Assembly: GCA_017427525.1 (NCBI GenBank)
Contig: JAFRSP010000070.1
Location: 1-64,000, forward strand
Length of the DNA: 64,000 nt
Direction: 5' to 3'
Source: Clostridia bacterium
GTDB lineage: Bacteria; Bacillota; Clostridia; Oscillospirales; Feifaniaceae
The notes below the pieces were generated by a model. The model was not told the origin of the DNA. It worked only from the letters and a program-made list of their open reading frames with translations, and searched no databases. Position numbers and translations under genes: made by a program. Of this stretch, positions 32,592 to 50,736 are shown piece after piece. Position 1 is the first letter of the stretch. Every line of letters starts with the position of its first letter.

Positions 32592-34502
32592 TCAGAACCG
32601 CTCCCGAACCACGCCGGGATGCTCCAACCGGTATCCGCCCAGCGCCTCCAGGCGGGCGCGGAAGGCATCGGAACGCAACACCTCCAGCAGACGCTGCACC
32701 ATGGGCGTGTTCATGGCGTCGTCGGAGATCAGCAGGTCATACTGCTCCATACAGATAGGAAGAAAATCCAGTCCATACAGCTGGGCGGCCGAGTAGATGC
32801 CCATGCCGGCGTCGGCAGTTCCGGCGGCGATCTGGGCGGCGACCGAGGTGTGAGTGAACTCTTCCCGGTCGTAGCCGAGGATGCTCCGCGGGTCAAGCCC
32901 GTGGGTCTTGCACAGATAGTCGATGAGGATGCGGGTGCCGGAGCCCTTCTGGCGGTTCACATAGCGCAGTCCGCTCTTTGCCAGATCCTCCAGGGAACGG
33001 ATGCCCAACGGATTGCCCTTTGAGAGCATCAGTCCCTGCGTGCGGCCTACGCATTCTACCAGGCATACCCCGCCCTGCGGGAAGTATTTTTGGACAAAGG
33101 CGGTATTGTAGCTGCCGTCGGCCTCATTCAGCAGATGGGTTCCGGCAACATGGGCTTCCCCCCTGCGAATGGCCATAAGGCCTCCCATGGAGCCCACATG
33201 CGTGGAGCTCATGAACATGCCGGCCTCTGCGGCATGGAGCAGGTCGGCGCACTCATCCAGCAGAGGATCGTGACTGCCGATGGCCACCAGGGTATGATCC
33301 AACGCGTCGACGGAGCGCAGCAGCTTCACGGGGACCGATTCTCCGGCGGCATAGCCCTCCACCCCCTGCGGCACGGTCAGGATACCATCAGCCTTCATAA
33401 AGGAGGAGACTACGCCGCTGCCCCTGCTCAGTGGGGAGGCGATGAGCTTTCCGTTCACTTTACCCAGCCGCACTCGGACATATTCCTGATATTTCAGCCC
33501 CGAAACTACGGCACGGGCCAGAGTGGCCGGAAGCAGAGGTTCGTTCTCCGGGGCGGTACGGTACCATTCCTCCAACAGAGGCTTGAGCAGTTCGGTCAGA
33601 ACCAGAATGCCGGAAACGGGATACCCCGGCACACCCAGAATCGCTTTGCCGCCCCGATGACCTAAAATCGCGGGCTTGCCGGGCTTGATGGCAATGCCGT
33701 GGCAAAGCACCGTGCCGAGCTCCCCGATGACCTTTTCGGAGTAATCCTCCCGTCCGGCAGAGGAGCCGGCGTTGAGCAGAACCACATCGCACTCCGAAAG
33801 CGCCTGCTCCAGCGCGGCAGAGAGCAGTTCTTCCCGGTCAGGTACAATGGGATAGGTTTTGGCTTCGGCGCCCCACTCTTTTACCATCGCGGAAAAGATG
33901 GAGGAATTAAATTCCACAATGTCCCCGGGCTTCGGGTCGGAAGTCGGCGGCACGATCTCGTCGCCAGTGGGGATGATGCCCACCACAGGGCGGCGCAGCA
34001 CGTCGACCTGCAGCACGCCTGCCGCCAGCATCGCGCCGATGGCAGAGGGAGAGATGCGCATGTGGGAGGGGAGGATCATCTCGCCCGCGCAGATATCCTC
34101 GCCGATTTGGCGGATATGCTGCCATGGCACGGCAGGACTGTAGAGCCGGATGGTGCCGTCCTCCTGCTCGATCACATCTTCTACCATAACTACGGCGTCG
34201 CAGCCTTCCGGGATGGGATCTCCGGTATCCACCACAGTGAAATCTTCCGGGAACAACACAGCGGGAGTGGTCTCGGTGGCTCCGAAGGTGCGCTCGGCCC
34301 GCAGAGCAATGCCGTCCATGGCGCTGGCGAGATAGTGCGGGGCGCTGATATGGGCGTATACGGCACGTGCAGTGACGCGTCCGCCGGCTTCGGTTACGGC
34401 AACAGACTCAGATTCAGGGCCGAAATCCTGAGAGCGCAGCGCCTCCAAAAACCGGGCTTTTGCCTCGTCAAGAGGAAGGTTGGTCAGATATTGAAAAGCC
34501 AT
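32592..34502 (-). CDS. MoeA fused to a periplasmic-binding-protein-like domain
   Basis: A 636-residue protein. Residues 1-410 are MoeA, molybdopterin molybdotransferase: HYLASAMDGIALRAERTF, VVDTGDPIPEGCDAVVMVED, IIPTGDEIVPP, LLNAGSSAGREDYSEKVI and GVPGYPVSGIL. Residues about 420-630 are a PBP-like domain (VAIGSHDPLLDECADLLH, SSTHVGSMGGLMAIRRGEAH, VNRQKGSGTRILIDYL) resembling the soluble sensor part of molybdate/tungstate-binding proteins. The PBP part may sense the anion or cofactor. It lies 12 bases downstream of the second moeA. Confidence 0.93.
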   Translation of the reverse strand: MAFQYLTNLPLDEAKARFLEALRSQDFGPESESVAVTEAGGRVTARAVYAHISAPHYLASAMDGIALRAERTFGATETTPAVLFPEDFTVVDTGDPIPEGCDAVVMVEDVIEQEDGTIRLYSPAVPWQHIRQIGEDICAGEMILPSHMRISPSAIGAMLAAGVLQVDVLRRPVVGIIPTGDEIVPPTSDPKPGDIVEFNSSIFSAMVKEWGAEAKTYPIVPDREELLSAALEQALSECDVVLLNAGSSAGREDYSEKVIGELGTVLCHGIAIKPGKPAILGHRGGKAILGVPGYPVSGILVLTELLKPLLEEWYRTAPENEPLLPATLARAVVSGLKYQEYVRVRLGKVNGKLIASPLSRGSGVVSSFMKADGILTVPQGVEGYAAGESVPVKLLRSVDALDHTLVAIGSHDPLLDECADLLHAAEAGMFMSSTHVGSMGGLMAIRRGEAHVAGTHLLNEADGSYNTAFVQKYFPQGGVCLVECVGRTQGLMLSKGNPLGIRSLEDLAKSGLRYVNRQKGSGTRILIDYLCKTHGLDPRSILGYDREEFTHTSVAAQIAAGTADAGMGIYSAAQLYGLDFLPICMEQYDLLISDDAMNTPMVQRLLEVLRSDAFRARLEALGGYRLEHPGVVRERF

Positions 34503-35823: not shown

Positions 35824-36495
35824 ATGGAACTGCGGTATGAACGGAATATCCCCTCCGTCTCCCCGGAGGAGCAGGCCGCCCTTTCCCGGAAACGGGTGCT
35901 TGTGACGGGCTGCGGCGGCCTGGGAGGGTTTTTGATCGAATATCTTGCCCGGATGGGTGTGGGGGAGCTGACGGTGGCAGACGGAGACGTATTCGAGGCC
36001 TCCAATCTGAATCGGCAGCTCCTCTCCGCGCCGGAAACGCTGGGCAAAGGCAAAGCCGCGGCAGCGGCGGCGCGGGTGCACCGAATCAACCCGCGGGTCA
36101 AAGTCGTGCCGGTAGAAGCCTTTTTCGGAAAAGACAACGCCGATCTCCTGACGGAGGGGCAGGATCTGGTGCTGGACGCTTTGGACAGTGCCGAGTCCAG
36201 GCTGATTCTGGAGGATGCCTGCGCCAAATGGGGCGTGACCATCGTGCACGGTGCGATCATGGGCTGGTCGGCCCAGGTCACGGTGGCAAGGCCGGGAGAA
36301 AACACCCTGCATCGGCTCTATGGGGAGAGCTTTTCACCGCGGTCAAAAACCAGTCTGCCCTTCACACCGGCATTCTGCGCGGCGGTGCAGGCAGCCGAAG
36401 CGGTGAAGCTGCTGTGCGGCCGTCCTTCGGCCCTGGAGGGGAAGCTGCTTGTGGCAGATCTGCTGCAAATGAACTGGGAAGTGATTCGGATCTAA
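35824..36495 (+). CDS. ThiF/MoeB/HesA-family adenylyltransferase
   Basis: A 223-residue E1-like enzyme that would adenylylate the C-terminal glycine of a ThiS/MoaD-type carrier. It has the nucleotide motif VLVTGCGGLGGFLIEYLARMG, the arginine-containing ASNLNRQLLSAPETLGKGKA, and DALDSAESRLILEDAC. The CxxC zinc pairs usual in MoeB and the C-terminal region are reduced or absent, so it belongs to the short HesA/ThiF group. The likely partner is the MoaD-like protein at 40880-41116. The ATG at 35824 follows GGAGG. It overlaps the convergent LysR gene by four bases. Confidence 0.88.
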   Translation: MELRYERNIPSVSPEEQAALSRKRVLVTGCGGLGGFLIEYLARMGVGELTVADGDVFEASNLNRQLLSAPETLGKGKAAAAAARVHRINPRVKVVPVEAFFGKDNADLLTEGQDLVLDALDSAESRLILEDACAKWGVTIVHGAIMGWSAQVTVARPGENTLHRLYGESFSPRSKTSLPFTPAFCAAVQAAEAVKLLCGRPSALEGKLLVADLLQMNWEVIRI

Positions 36496-37379
36496 TTGCA
36501 AGGTTCGACCGAGAAATAGTTCAGCACAAAATCCCGAAAGGCTCTGCCCAAAGGGGAGAGGGTCTTTTCCCTGCGAAAGCAGACCATCATCTGCCGGGTA
36601 AAGCGGCGATCCTGAAGGGGGATCAGCCGGATCGCCCCATCTCCCAGATAAAGTGCGGAGCAGTCGGTTGGCACAAAGCCCACACAAAGGCCTGAGGCGA
36701 TCATTTGCCGGTGCAGCTCCCGGGAATCGGCATAGCAGACCGAATGAAAGCGGAGCGCCAGCGCGCTGCAAATCTGAAAGGGGAACTCCTCTCCGGAGCG
36801 GCCGCCTCGCAGAAACACCGCATCCTGCCCCTCCAGCGCCTTCGGAAGCAGGGAGGGGCTGTCTGCAAGAGGGTGCCGCGCGGGGACGGCCAGAGCATAG
36901 CGCTCCTCGTAGAGGGGATATCCGGTGAATTTTGCATATTTTCTTCCGGCGGGGTAGATGAGCATATCATATTCATTGATATCAAGGTGTTCCAAGCTCT
37001 CAATTTCGCCTGTGAGCTCGAATTCCGTTTCCGGGGCGATTTCCCGGTAGGCAGCAAGGCACTCGGTGAGCTTGTCGCAGAAGCCGGCAAGGCCGATCTT
37101 GATTTTGGCCTCCGCCCCCGTGGATAAAAGACGCATATCATCAAGCGCATAGTCCAGTTCCCGAAGTACCATGGTGCTGAATTCCAACAGTCTTGCGCCG
37201 GCCGAATTCAACACCAGCTTTCGACCGTTTCGCTGAAAGAGCGGCATCCCGAGTTCCTCCTCCAGCGTGGAGAGGTTTTTGGACAGGGATGACTGGGAAA
37301 GATGCAAAAGCTCCGCAGCTTGGGAGACGTTTTCCAATTGGGCGATGGTGACAAAATAACGCAGCTGCGCAATACGCAC
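36492..37379 (-). CDS. LysR-family transcriptional regulator
   Basis: A 295-residue LysR-type regulator: N-terminal winged helix-turn-helix (QLRYFVTIAQLENVSQAAEL then SLSKNLSTLEEELGMPLFQR), a linker helix, and an effector-binding domain from about residue 90 (IKIGLAGFCDKLTECLAAYR, AVPARHPLADSPSLLP). GTG start. It lies between the ThiF-like gene and the tungstate transporter and may control either, but no operator was identified. Confidence 0.9.
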   Translation of the reverse strand: MRIAQLRYFVTIAQLENVSQAAELLHLSQSSLSKNLSTLEEELGMPLFQRNGRKLVLNSAGARLLEFSTMVLRELDYALDDMRLLSTGAEAKIKIGLAGFCDKLTECLAAYREIAPETEFELTGEIESLEHLDINEYDMLIYPAGRKYAKFTGYPLYEERYALAVPARHPLADSPSLLPKALEGQDAVFLRGGRSGEEFPFQICSALALRFHSVCYADSRELHRQMIASGLCVGFVPTDCSALYLGDGAIRLIPLQDRRFTRQMMVCFRREKTLSPLGRAFRDFVLNYFSVEPCN

Positions 37380-37744: not shown

Positions 37745-37780
37745 TATGACATGCTGAAAACTGAATTTTGCAGTTTGAAA

Positions 37781-37860
37781 GCGGTGGACGAGCCTCTTTC
37801 CGAACCCGACCTGAACGGAGTTTCCGGGCAGGTCCCGATTGGATTGAGCTCGCTTTTTTA
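37781..37860 (+). promoter_or_regulatory. Structured leader RNA upstream of tupA, candidate Moco/Tuco-like riboswitch or attenuator
   Basis: An outer helix CGAGC (37789-37793) with GCTCG (37848-37852) encloses GACCTG (37808-37813) with CAGGTC (37829-37834), which in turn encloses CGGA-GTT-TCCG. Six T residues follow the outer helix at 37854-37859. The helix-plus-T-run layout suggests transcription control. Molybdenum/tungsten cofactor riboswitches are known upstream of Mo/W transport and cofactor genes, which makes that class attractive, but I could not confirm its conserved core. Confidence 0.5.
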
Positions 37861-37885
37861 TTCTGCAAAAATGGAGGAGAAACAC

Positions 37886-38875
37886 ATGAAAAGAACCCTT
37901 GCCTGGATTCTGGCCGCCGTATTGGTTTTAGGCCTTCTGGCCGGCTGCAGCAAAAATGCCGAGACCCCCGACGACGGGTCAGATGCTGAGGAAAGCGCCA
38001 CCAATACCGTGATCCTCAAGGAAGCGGACGAAAAAATGATCAACACCTATACCCTGCTGGCAGTCAATCCCGAGGCTCCCTTTGTGGATGCAGATGGCAA
38101 TCCGGTCTCCGACGTGGCGGTGAACGCCGCCGGTGCCGAGGCGCTCATCGACTGGTTCCTGTCTGCCGAGGGGAAGGATTTGGCCGCCGACTACGGTCAG
38201 GCCGAATATGGCGACAGCCTGTTCTACCTGCTGGAAGGCGCCCCGGTCTTTGCGGGCGAGATCGCCGCTGCCACCCCCGAAACCGAGACCATCCGGCTTT
38301 CCACCACCACCTCCGTCAACGATTCCGGCCTGCTTGGCGCGCTGCTTCCCGTGTTTGAATCCGAATACGGCTACAAGGTGGAGATCCAGTCTGCCGGCAC
38401 CGGCAAGGCGATCGCAGCGGCCAAATACGGCAACGCGGATCTGATCCTGGTCCACGCCAAGTCCCAGGAAGAGACCTTCGTGGCAGACGGCTTCTCATAT
38501 GTGCTGCCCGGCTTTGAAAGCGAGCGGCTTTCCTTCCTGTATAACTACTTTGTGCTGTGCGGGCCTGCCTCTGACCCCGCCGGCGTGAAAGACTGTGCGA
38601 GCGTTCTGGATGCCTTTGCCGCCATTGCCGACGGTAAGTACACCTTTATCTCCCGCGGCGACGGCTCCGGCACTCACACCAAGGAGCTGTCTCTCTGGCC
38701 CGAGGCTTTGGGCATCACCGCCGATGCGGAGAGCTTTGCCGACTACACCGAGTGGTATGTTTCCGCCAATGCCGGCATGGGTTCCTGCCTGGTGATGGCC
38801 GAGGAGAAGGAAGCCTATATCCTCACCGACAAGGCCACCTTCCTGACCTTCCAGGCCAACGGCGGCGTGATGTAA
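37886..38875 (+). CDS. tupA: Tungstate-binding lipoprotein, apparently circularly permuted TupA
   Basis: A 329-residue lipoprotein (lipobox LLAGC, Cys21). Residues 136-329 match the N-terminal two thirds of TupA: IRLSTTTSVNDSGLLGALLP, VEIQSAGTGKAIAAAKYGNA, FISRGDGSGTHTKELSLW, TDKATFLTFQA. The normal C-terminal part (about MINTYTLLAVNPE, then AAGAEALIDWFLSAEGKDLA, ADYGQAEYGDSLF) instead occupies residues about 42-113, before the core. TupA binds tungstate outside the membrane and passes it to TupB. GGAGGAG precedes the ATG at 37886; the longer open frame from 37691 would cross the promoter and leader. Confidence 0.88.
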   Translation: MKRTLAWILAAVLVLGLLAGCSKNAETPDDGSDAEESATNTVILKEADEKMINTYTLLAVNPEAPFVDADGNPVSDVAVNAAGAEALIDWFLSAEGKDLAADYGQAEYGDSLFYLLEGAPVFAGEIAAATPETETIRLSTTTSVNDSGLLGALLPVFESEYGYKVEIQSAGTGKAIAAAKYGNADLILVHAKSQEETFVADGFSYVLPGFESERLSFLYNYFVLCGPASDPAGVKDCASVLDAFAAIADGKYTFISRGDGSGTHTKELSLWPEALGITADAESFADYTEWYVSANAGMGSCLVMAEEKEAYILTDKATFLTFQANGGVM

Positions 38876-38942: not shown

Positions 38943-39629
38943 GTGCAAACCGCGCTGCAAAAGGCTCTTGAGCTCATCCTTTCGGGAGACCGTGAGTTGG
39001 CCAATATTCTTCTGGTCACGGCAAAAACCTGCGTGACCAGCTCGCTGATCGCGCTGCTGGTCGGCCTTCCCATCGGGATTTGGCTGGGAGCCAGCCGGTT
39101 CCGGGGCCGTCAGGCGCTGGTGGTTTTTTTCCGCACCATGATGGGCATGCCGCCCGTGGTGTGCGGACTGGTGATGTATATGCTTTTCTCAGGGGTTGGC
39201 CCGTTCGGAAAGAAAAAACTGCTTTTCACGGTGACTATCATGATCATTGCACAGGTGGTGCTCATCACCCCACTGGTGGTCGCCAATTTGGAAACATATG
39301 TCGCGGCGATCGCCCAGTCTGTGAGGGAAACGGCCAAAGGTCTCGGCATTGGGCCGTGGCGGACCTTTCTGCTGCTCTCAAATGAGTGCATGTATCCCAT
39401 CTTTTCCACCTACCTGCTGGCCTTTGCCCGCTCCATTGCGGAGGTCGGCGCGGTGTCCATGGTGGGCGGTGCCATCGCCTGGAAGACCAACGTGATGACC
39501 ACGGCTATCATGCTCTATACCAATCGGGGCAGCTTCACATTGGGGGTCGCATTGGGCGTTATCCTGATCGCGATCTCCCTGCTGGTGAATATCGCCGTCA
39601 CCGTGATGCAGAGGAGGCTGAGCCGATGA
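38943..39629 (+). CDS. tupB: Tungstate ABC transporter permease TupB
   Basis: A 228-residue permease with about five or six membrane helices: LANILLVTAKTCVTSSLIAL, MGMPPVVCGLVMYMLFSG, and the EAA-like loop SVRETAKGLGIGPWRTF that contacts the ATPase, followed by AFARSIAEVGAVSMVGGAI. The GTG at 38943 has AAGGAG eight bases upstream. The stop overlaps tupC by four bases. Confidence 0.92.
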   Translation: MQTALQKALELILSGDRELANILLVTAKTCVTSSLIALLVGLPIGIWLGASRFRGRQALVVFFRTMMGMPPVVCGLVMYMLFSGVGPFGKKKLLFTVTIMIIAQVVLITPLVVANLETYVAAIAQSVRETAKGLGIGPWRTFLLLSNECMYPIFSTYLLAFARSIAEVGAVSMVGGAIAWKTNVMTTAIMLYTNRGSFTLGVALGVILIAISLLVNIAVTVMQRRLSR

Positions 39630-40294
39630 AGATCGCAGCCTGCAGCAAAACCTACGGAAAGCGCACGGTACTCCGCTGTGGGGAGCTGACGTTGGAGCCC
39701 GGAGAGGTCTGTGCCGTGGTGGGACCGAACGGCAGCGGGAAGTCCACCTATGCCAAACTGATCGCGGGGGTGCTGGAGCCGGACAGAGCCGGAAGACTGG
39801 TCGAGGAGGCTGTGACGATCCGGTATATGCCGCAGAAAAGCTATCCCTTCCGGATGAGTGTGGAGAAAAACATTCTGCTCTCCGGGGATGATCGGGAAAG
39901 AGCGAGGGAGCTGATGGAAAAGCTCCGGCTGACCGCCCTTGTCCGTCAGCGTGCCGGCTCCCTGTCCGGTGGGGAAGCAGCCAAGATGGCCTTGGCACGG
40001 GTGCTGATGCAGCGGTGTGATCTGCTGATTCTGGACGAACCCACCGCGGCCATGGATATGGAATCCGCCATCGCCGCCGAGCAGTTGATTCAGAACTACC
40101 GGCAGGAGAATGGGTGTGCCGTTTTGCTGGTGACCCATGATCTCTCTCAAGCACGGCGCATGGCGGGCAACGCGCTGTTTTTCTATGGAGGGGAACTGTG
40201 TGAAGCCGGCAGCGCAGAGACCGTGCTCTTTCATCCTGAGCGGGAGGAGACCCGCCAGTTTCTCGAGTATTACGGAGGCTTTGCAAAACGATGA
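39626..40294 (+). CDS. tupC: Tungstate ABC transporter ATP-binding protein TupC
   Basis: A 222-residue ABC ATPase: Walker A VVGPNGSGKSTYAKLIAG, Q-loop YMPQKSYPF, signature LSGGEAAKMALARVL (here SLSGGEAAK), Walker B DLLILDEPTAAMD and the switch His in LLVTHDLSQA. It energises tungstate import with TupB and TupA. ATG at 39626 follows GAGGAGG and overlaps the tupB stop (ATGA). The operon is followed by a terminator. Confidence 0.93.
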   Translation: MKIAACSKTYGKRTVLRCGELTLEPGEVCAVVGPNGSGKSTYAKLIAGVLEPDRAGRLVEEAVTIRYMPQKSYPFRMSVEKNILLSGDDRERARELMEKLRLTALVRQRAGSLSGGEAAKMALARVLMQRCDLLILDEPTAAMDMESAIAAEQLIQNYRQENGCAVLLVTHDLSQARRMAGNALFFYGGELCEAGSAETVLFHPEREETRQFLEYYGGFAKR

Positions 40295-40879: not shown

Positions 40880-41116
40880 TCAGCCGCCGCCGAGCAGGGT
40901 ATAGACAAAAAGAATATCCCCCTCCGCAAGCGATTGGTCGGGAAACCTTCTGGCCTGATCGACCATATAGATCACCCCGTTCAGCTCCTCAGCAGGGTTT
41001 CGGCCCTCCCGCCGCAACAGCAGTGCGGCGGCCTCCTCACAGGTGAGGACTTGCGGAGCTTCGACCGTTCCCTCCCATTTTTGGGTGAGCTCGTAAAAAA
41101 CGACAGAAACTCTCAT
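40880..41116 (-). CDS. MoaD/ThiS-family sulfur carrier protein
   Basis: A 78-residue ubiquitin-like carrier: VSVVFYELTQKWEGTVEAP, GVIYMVDQARRF, AEGDILFVYTLLGGG. The C-terminal Gly-Gly is adenylylated and thiocarboxylated by a MoeB/ThiF enzyme to donate sulfur during molybdopterin synthesis. Here the chain ends in three glycines after TLL rather than the usual two. It follows the aldehyde:ferredoxin oxidoreductase gene by five bases; such MoaD-like genes commonly accompany tungsten oxidoreductases. Confidence 0.88.
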   Translation of the reverse strand: MRVSVVFYELTQKWEGTVEAPQVLTCEEAAALLLRREGRNPAEELNGVIYMVDQARRFPDQSLAEGDILFVYTLLGGG

Positions 41117-41121
41117 GGCGC

Positions 41122-42966
41122 TTATCGATACAGGTCGGCGATGACAAGATCCAATCCGCCGACGGCTTCCAGAGCTTCTTTGGAGGGAACAAGCGTCTCT
41201 TTGTCCATATGCATGATCTCAAAGAAATTGTCGGCCAGCCGCTCCACGTCCACCTTGGAGTCTTTCAGAGGGCCGGTAAAAGGAGGAGCCGCTTCCGTAA
41301 AGCGCTTGGAGAGCGTGAAGCTCTTTCTCGACATCCCTTCGCGCAGATTGAAAGCGTGCCGCATATAGAAGATGCGAACGCCCAGATCGTCGATCTCCTC
41401 CGGCGTATACTGGAACCCGGTCACTGCGATGAGGTAACGGGGGATGATCCCTTGAGGAGAAGCGCCGCCGCCCAGGAGACAGTAGCCGGCAGAATTGCGG
41501 ATCTCCGAGAGGATCACGCCGGCCTTATCGGCCTCTCCGCTGGTGGCGTAGTCAAAATCGGGACCGCTGGGGCGCATTCCGATGCCGCCCTTGACGTGTC
41601 TGCCCGGGGTGGGATCGTATTTGTAGGTGCGGGACAGGCCGTAAGCTAAGCGGCTGTCATGTTGGGGCTCTTCGATTCCGCTTGCGACTACCAAAAACTC
41701 CTCCCCCTTGCCGAGGCGGCGGCAGGCTTCTCGGGAGCCTTGGCACAGGGTCGCGCCGATGCCCTCGCCTTTGCAGATCTTTTCGCAGAGGGCCACGATG
41801 GCGTCGCTGTTGCCCCAAGTGAGATCAATACCGTCGAGCTCCTCTCTGGAAAGCACGCCCTCGTTGTAACACTCCATGGCCCAGGCGATGGTGGAGCCGG
41901 TGGAAATGGTATCCAGTCCGTATTCGTTGCAGAGCTCGTTGCATTGGCTCACGGAAATGGGATCGCTGTTGAGCAGCAGGGAGCCGAAAGCGCCCTGGGT
42001 CTCATACTCCGGACGGGGAGTGTCGGAAAGATCCATTTTGTCATTCGGGATATCCATGATGGCGCCGCAGCCCAGGGGGCAGTTGGAGCAGTTGTATTTC
42101 TTCTTCTTAAACTTGTCGATCCCCACGCTGCCCACGGGAGTAGACATGGCCTCGGGATAGTCTGCCACGCCGGAGCCGCTCCAGTTCTTCACGCCCGCGT
42201 CTCCGGAGAGGGTGGAGTTGGTGAAGCCGGCGCCGGTGCCATAGGCCCCGAACGCACGTGAAAAACCGGCGCCGGGCCCGTCTTTCATATTAGCGGCAAG
42301 CTCCCTGTTGAGCTGCAGGAGACCCTCGCGGTCGGCTACCTCGGTGCGGGCTTCTCCTTTGACCACGATGGCTTTGAGTTTCTTGGAGCCGATCACGGCG
42401 CCTGAACCGCCTCTGCCGGCGGCGCGGTGCTCGTTGTTCATCACGGCGGCAATGGGGGACATCCGCTCTCCGCCGGGACCGATGAAGGCGGCCTGAACCT
42501 TCTCGCCGTGGATCTCCCGGAATTTTGCCTCAAGCGCCTTGGAGGTCATTCCCCAGAGCGCGGAAGCATCATACAGCTGAGCCTTTCCGTCTTCAATATA
42601 GAGATAGACGGGGGTTTCAGAAATGCCGTTGATGAAAACAGCATCGTAGCCTGCTTTTTTCAGAGCGGGGCCGAAATACCCGCCGGAGTTGGCGTCGTTC
42701 CAGCCGCCGGTGACAGGGGATTTACTGACCACGGTGTAGCGGCCGCCAAAAAAAACATTGGCATTGTTGAAGGGAGAGGTGACGAACCCTACCATGCTCT
42801 CGGGACCGAACACATCCGCGTGGGCAGGCATATTTTCATAGAGGATCTTGGCGCCAAGACCGGGGCCGCCGATGAAATTTCTGGCGGTTTCCTCGTCGAG
42901 AATCCGATCTTCCAGCGTTTTGTTTGTGAGATTGACAAACAGCATTTTCCCGGCATAACCAAACAT
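41122..42966 (-). CDS. aor: Aldehyde:ferredoxin oxidoreductase (tungsten-pterin enzyme)
   Basis: A 614-residue AOR-family enzyme oxidising aldehydes to acids with ferredoxin. The N-terminal domain has GYAGKMLFVNLTNKTLEDR, FIGGPGLGAKILYENMP and KSPVTGGWNDANSGGYFGP. The [4Fe-4S] ligands are CSNCPLGC near residue 290 and a fourth Cys in NSAGYCLLGG near 500. The DPTPGRHVKGGIGMRPSG region also matches. Cofactor is tungsten bis-pterin in known members. ATG at 42966 follows AAAGGAAA; a promoter TTGTGA-17-TATAAT lies at 43100-43128. It forms an operon with the MoaD-like gene. Confidence 0.94.
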   Translation of the reverse strand: MFGYAGKMLFVNLTNKTLEDRILDEETARNFIGGPGLGAKILYENMPAHADVFGPESMVGFVTSPFNNANVFFGGRYTVVSKSPVTGGWNDANSGGYFGPALKKAGYDAVFINGISETPVYLYIEDGKAQLYDASALWGMTSKALEAKFREIHGEKVQAAFIGPGGERMSPIAAVMNNEHRAAGRGGSGAVIGSKKLKAIVVKGEARTEVADREGLLQLNRELAANMKDGPGAGFSRAFGAYGTGAGFTNSTLSGDAGVKNWSGSGVADYPEAMSTPVGSVGIDKFKKKKYNCSNCPLGCGAIMDIPNDKMDLSDTPRPEYETQGAFGSLLLNSDPISVSQCNELCNEYGLDTISTGSTIAWAMECYNEGVLSREELDGIDLTWGNSDAIVALCEKICKGEGIGATLCQGSREACRRLGKGEEFLVVASGIEEPQHDSRLAYGLSRTYKYDPTPGRHVKGGIGMRPSGPDFDYATSGEADKAGVILSEIRNSAGYCLLGGGASPQGIIPRYLIAVTGFQYTPEEIDDLGVRIFYMRHAFNLREGMSRKSFTLSKRFTEAAPPFTGPLKDSKVDVERLADNFFEIMHMDKETLVPSKEALEAVGGLDLVIADLYR

Positions 42967-43099
42967 AACGTTTCCTTTCCGGACAGTTGTCCATTTCCGA
43001 ATCGTGACGGCAGCACTGCAGGACAGGCCGCGCGGCAGAACCGAAAAGCCCGTCGTTTTTCCGTGCGGGACAAGGGGTTCCATATGAATTGATACTTCT

Positions 43100-50482: not shown

Positions 50483-50592
50483 AAACATCAGTTTCAAGGG
50501 CAACATGCAGGCGGGCAGGCATCCATAGAACCTCAGAACGGGAAACAAGGGATTTGTCCATTCAGAGCGTTTTTCTTGATGCGTTGTCGCAC

Positions 50593-50671
50593 GATTCTGT
50601 CCTTTTGCCTGAGAGATTCGGCCTTGCGGCCTTGCACCTTCGGCACTCAAATCAATGAGCTTCTCCAGAAT
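50593..50671 (-). ncRNA. Glycine riboswitch (single aptamer)
   Basis: On the minus strand the P1 helix GATTCTG/CAGAATC encloses the class core GAGTGCCGAAGGTGCAAG and CTCTCAGGCAAAAGGACAG, which is diagnostic of glycine aptamers. Only one recognisable aptamer is present. It sits upstream of the AGCS symporter and a leader terminator. Confidence 0.93.
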
Positions 50672-50736
50672 CCCCTCCATGCGCAGTTTCAAAACGATTC
50701 TGCGCATTTCACAGGATCATATTCACTATGCGCCAA

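Follow-up and report, generated by a model that had tools for sequence, protein, structure and literature searches.

A TupA-family lipoprotein with its C-terminal segment ahead of its core: a probable natural circular permutant in Clostridia

The gene at 37886–38875 (+ strand) of the window (the whole 64 000 nt stretch of DNA analysed here) raises the question of whether a tungstate-binding protein of the TupA family can carry its C-terminal segment in front of its core and, if so, whether this order is real, how it came about and whether the protein still does the work of TupA. The ORF is intact, starts with ATG behind a Shine–Dalgarno sequence (GGAGGAG, 37873–37879) and encodes a 329-residue lipoprotein of a gut bacterium; comparison with four relatives gives dN/dS values of about 0.06–0.14. 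Read from its N-terminus, the protein is made up of a signal peptide with the lipobox LAGC (L18-A19-G20-C21, with Cys21; 37886–37948), of which residues 2–18 are a helix in the AlphaFold2 (AF2) model, a disordered tether (residues 22–39, 37949–38002; pLDDT below 50 over residues 20–36), a segment homologous to the C-terminus of TupA (residues 40–115, 38003–38230), a linker between the old C-terminus and the old N-terminus (residues 114–139, 38225–38302) and the TupA core, meaning the canonical N-terminal and middle part (residues 132–325, 38279–38860), which is recognized by NF041772, PF12849 and the structures 3muq, 3lr1 and 5my5. In the alignment the moved segment contains an insertion peculiar to the permuted clade, about 11 residues long (VDADGNPVSDV, 38084–38116).

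The order of the segments was followed by phmmer comparison with solved structures. Residues 133–323 of the query match residues 4–179 of 3muq, and query residues 42–87 match residues 185–232 of the same chain; 3lr1, 5my5 and 3kn3 behave likewise, each matching two query stretches in swapped order. Two matches per TupA chain in reversed order are the pattern of a circular permutation. The best stretch for both Pfam PBP_like_2 and the NCBI TupA model is query residues ~130–325, and as these matches stop at profile positions 209 of 267 and 192 of 266 respectively, the final part of each profile is absent behind the core. A profile built from the N-terminal segments of 46 permuted relatives matches the tail of canonical TupAs (i-E down to 6e-23; below 1e-3 in 66 of 76 ORFs), and 20 column-shuffled versions of this profile gave no matches. 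The N-terminal segment, aligned separately, is thus homologous to the TupA C-terminus, and the reading in which the two are unrelated fails. The central claim of the original prediction, that the C-terminal segment of TupA lies ahead of the core, is borne out by the structure matches and the moved-segment profile together. In 53 non-redundant canonical TupAs the core match is followed at once by the moved-segment match, with an offset of −4 to +1 residues. The bounds given for the segment need refining at its start, as homology begins at about residue 40 (VILKEAD), earlier than the ‘MINTYTLL’ proposed. The loop that holds the new termini connects the helix after LTDKATFLT with the strand VILKEAD.

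All 86 permuted ORFs have the order [C-segment]-[N-core], and a second copy of the moved segment, as in a duplication intermediate with it at both ends, was found in none of the 86 permuted and 62 canonical ORFs. The window protein is homologous to TupA over both core and C-terminal segment and departs from the canonical N-to-C order, for which reason we file it as a permuted TupA variant and not as an ordinary member. Its score of 133 bits lies below the NCBI TupA equivalog cutoff of 400 bits, a cutoff without discriminating power here as none of 291 genomes of the class reaches it. Order-sensitive annotation of this kind (NCBI TupA equivalog, Pfam) covers only about two thirds of a permuted TupA.

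As the window stems from a 74-contig assembly, two pieces of a normal tupA might have been joined in the wrong order during assembly or binning. Of 143 relatives confirmed when 84 980 species genomes were scanned, the 80 best were fetched; all 80 have the permuted order, at 64–90% identity and in the assemblies of other species, and whole-genome searches added further permuted copies (L082, L083, L121–L123 and L150). In all 81 permuted proteins measured, the spacing from LF to TTTS is exactly 26 residues, indicating that the old termini are bridged and not directly fused. An artefact that recurs at more than 80 loci of different species, each assembled separately, and that keeps a linker of invariably 26 residues and is under purifying selection has a negligible probability, and because the independent assemblies of the 80 relatives show the same order, misassembly is excluded. 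The permuted TupA is an inherited change of architecture common to more than 80 related species, and no sequencing error.

Mean column identity among the 46 aligned permuted members is 67%. The distribution of the permuted form is restricted in the samples covered. Permuted tupA was found in four of the 391 genomes of the class sample and in one (L150) of the 150 sampled from family f23. The phylum sample of 348 genomes includes 171 with a match, none of these being a permuted TupA except in the window's own genome; the best match outside the window there (223 bits) covers the core only. Among plasmid records, none covers at least 80% of the permuted TupA query.

How the order arose was approached through trees of the two halves. 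A quick tree built from the cores of 81 permuted and 41 canonical proteins needs a single change of order (SH-aLRT 100 for the permuted clade), and the clade remains monophyletic after sampling of family f23, with SH-aLRT values of 99.9 for the core, 87.2 for the moved segment and 99.7 for both together. On these trees the permuted order has arisen once, in a single clade. A TupA of canonical order from family f23, L158, is sister to this clade in both half-trees, with 83.3 for the core and 91.5 for the moved segment, support for this position in the concatenated tree being 0, and it has a shorter insertion at the exact site of the ~11 extra residues of the permuted clade. A chimera, in which the N-terminal segment was taken from another TupA paralogue and fused before a truncated core, would have had donors at hand, as some genomes (G101, G552 and G455) carry two tupA-like genes. 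Core and moved segment, however, share their nearest canonical group and the sister L158 in trees made independently, which favours the rearrangement of a single gene and makes a chimera very improbable. Agreement of the half-trees places both segments in the same ancestral gene, with their order swapped, as in a circular permutant. We therefore regard the window gene as a natural circular permutant of tupA whose product would keep the TupA fold, bind tungstate and hand it over to TupBC, with a probability of roughly 0.93.

In one ancestor within the Clostridia, tupA was probably duplicated in tandem and in frame and the tandem then lost its outer halves, which would leave the C-terminal segment ahead of the core and the old termini bridged by the 26-residue linker. 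Neighbouring tupA-like copies are found in the class, at L116 (in G552) and at G455:C1:1986592-1989321, one of them divergent, so that copies from which duplication and truncation could proceed do exist. Several other arrangements were noted in passing. L118 and L129 have a second tupA tail without a core; G101, of the same genus, has a permuted and a canonical-order tupA in one genome (C157:1359-2279 and C285:1646-2398); and in L161 (G888) a canonical tupA is split, with its core in a frame of 174 aa and its tail in one of 119 aa, probably because this copy is broken or was misread in sequencing.

Whether the permuted protein would still bind tungstate can be judged from its ligand site. In Desulfovibrio alaskensis TupA this is formed by T9–T11, S12, H59, R118, T124 and D170 (PMC5517513). 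Counterparts are the TTTS oxyanion motif at residues 140–143 (38303–38314; T9–S12), His190 (38453–38455; H59), Arg257 (38654–38656; the selectivity residue R118), Thr263 (38672–38674; T124) and Asp315 (38828–38830; D170), and T140–T142, S143, H190, R257, T263 and D315 are invariant across the 46 permuted members. None of the published oxyanion-site residues lies in the moved segment. From this conservation, tungstate would be bound in the conserved cleft. A real permutant that has changed its ligand, to molybdate or another oxyanion, might be suspected from the clade-specific insertions in both core and moved segment and from the missed equivalog cutoff (133 of 400 bits, which the canonical clostridial TupAs sampled miss too), but the invariance of T140–S143, H190, R257, T263 and D315, a tungsten-type aldehyde:ferredoxin oxidoreductase (AOR) in the neighbourhood and AOR homologues in the flanking DNA retrieved for 21 permuted loci make it improbable.

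AF2 modelling with 46 family members gave a mean pLDDT of 89.3 and a pTM of 0.78, and the linker (residues 114–139) is predicted to be ordered, with high pLDDT. A Foldseek search with this model returned TupA-family structures as the best matches (E down to 7.5e-14; best TM normalized by target 0.65, for 3lr1), aligning only about 195 columns of the core because the program respects chain order. The idea that the protein could still fold in the permuted order agrees with the confident model and with TupA structures as its best matches, the Foldseek alignment itself speaking for the core only; the TupA fold would probably be kept, with the moved segment expected at its usual place. Domain-swapped oligomers, in which the moved segment would complete a lobe of the neighbouring molecule, could give the permuted order a purpose, but the confident monomer model over both parts and the linker points the other way, as does the fixed length of 26 residues, which fits intramolecular closure, and we consider this reading scarcely credible.

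Retention of the TupA fold would still place the lipid anchor at a new point. Lobe A of TupA consists of residues 2–76 and 201–251 and lobe B of residues 91–200 (PMC5517513). In the phmmer structure alignment (offset of 23 from the TTTS motif), Q200/Y201 of TupA fall on T54/Y55 of the window protein, which puts the new break (325 | ~40) within lobe B; judged from the published boundaries, the new N-terminus would be in lobe B and the old one in lobe A. As it is the new N-terminus that carries the lipid, the tether would enter at lobe B. In canonical TupAs a median of 19 residues separates the Cys from the point where the core match begins, and the anchor soon reaches lobe A at its TTTS strand; in the permuted TupA it would reach lobe B at its last strand, at the edge of the lobe. 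Tether entry would thus be some 100 residues in sequence from TTTS, whereas the canonical tether runs almost straight into it. The original prediction had spoken of tethering from a new point, and the published boundaries make this specific as a probable move from lobe A to lobe B.

Directly downstream lie a gene for a TupB-like permease (BPD_transp_1; 38943–39629, +) and, overlapping it, one for a TupC-like ATPase (ABC_tran; 39626–40294, +), both assigned by Pfam domain. A TupB homologue is the next gene in 80 of the 81 permuted loci with enough flank (in the 81st, L083, it overlaps in ORF coordinates), and a TupC-like ATPase gene is present in 72 of 73; in having adjacent tupB and tupC the permuted gene is like canonical tupA. 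A tungsten-type AOR (AFOR_N, AFOR_C; 41122–43083, −) is likely to be the consumer of the tungsten. Near tupABC there are also two MoeA genes, a MoaE and a ThiF, and a small protein (40880–41116) which has no Pfam match and is taken to be ThiS/MoaD-like because of its C-terminal Gly-Gly. The permuted TupA would pass tungstate to the adjacent TupBC importer, and import would probably feed the neighbouring AOR and molybdopterin genes. In the simplest working model from this gene arrangement, TupABC would be an importer of the ordinary kind, except that its receptor is permuted, and would supply tungsten to the AOR system. In a separate observation, the protein encoded at 32592–34502 (−) is a MoeA with a PBP_like domain (PF12727) fused to its C-terminus, so that a binding-protein-like domain is carried by a molybdopterin enzyme. 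Divergent from tupA and upstream of it is a gene for a LysR-type regulator (36492–37379, −), possibly a regulator of the tungsten cluster.

The permuted gene is preceded by a conserved leader (37771–37859). Of 87 permuted tupA loci, 67 have a counterpart at this place, and no canonical locus has one. The 15 bases at its heart, GTGGACGAGCCTCTT, are mostly identical between loci. A hairpin with the hexaloop GGACGA (37773–37805, +) is present in 52 of 53 distinct leaders, its lower stem being variable yet paired, and the minimum free energy fold and the sequence give a competing terminator-like fold ending in a T-run (37787–37859, +), whose 5′ arm is the conserved leader motif. No Rfam family matches the leader at up to E = 1. 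Among 196 genomes of the class the 16-base leader motif occurs exactly in the window's own genome only, inexact matches being about as frequent as those of the reversed control, and viral contigs contain no exact match. The leader looks like a transcription attenuator, and may control tungsten uptake as an attenuator or a riboswitch. Elsewhere in the window (50587–50678, −) there is a glycine riboswitch aptamer (RF00504, 63.7 bits).

Taken with the new tether point, the leader invites the further reading that the permutation was selected, with a shift of the membrane tether, away from the ligand-motif end of lobe A and to lobe B, altering opening, closing or docking to TupB, and that with a tungsten-responsive attenuator peculiar to the clade it forms part of a re-engineered uptake module. 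L158 already has a lipobox-like N-terminus with its segments in canonical order, so that a need for anchoring alone cannot explain the permutation; relocation of the anchor might. We hold selection of this kind to be a tentative and rather unlikely proposal.

Compared with canonical TupA (NF041772; PDB 3lr1, 5my5 and 3muq), the permuted protein shares both halves, the oxyanion-site residues, its nature as a lipoprotein and the tupBC operon, and differs in its swapped segments, new termini, linker of 26 aa and insertion of ~11 aa, and in an anchor at what would be the other lobe. To our knowledge, natural circular permutations for which both a living relative of canonical order and a large permuted clade are available are uncommon, and the tupA permutation can be assigned to a branch and its halves traced. 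Circular permutants are known within the class II fold, where glycine betaine-binding proteins (OpuAC/ProX type) are permuted relative to molybdate-binding proteins and CysB (PMC2395249). That permutation is deep, visible in structure only at below 24% identity, and lies between families with different ligands, unlike the event described here, which took place inside one family with a traceable relative of canonical order. The searchable literature, which takes in few subscription journals, held no earlier description of a permuted TupA; a circularly permuted binding lipoprotein is a known kind, and as far as that literature goes the permuted TupA is a new case of it. The known case is Tp0684/TpMglB-2 of Treponema pallidum (‘Type Ic / Cluster Bc’), a naturally permuted, glucose-binding lipoprotein of class I (PMC4990184), which like the permuted TupA is a circularly permuted binding lipoprotein of an ABC importer. 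It differs in its ligand and in its class I (cluster B) fold, and represents a separate event in another family; the window protein does not have that sugar-binding fold, its best matches being PBP_like_2 in Pfam and, among structures, folds of class II (TupA-like). The permuted TupA would thus be a second, independent permuted lipoprotein binding protein after Tp0684, from another fold class. The authors of the Tp0684 study speculated that tethering was the driver and noted that the new N-terminus lies near fewer ligand residues (PMC4990184), an idea that the permuted TupA makes testable.
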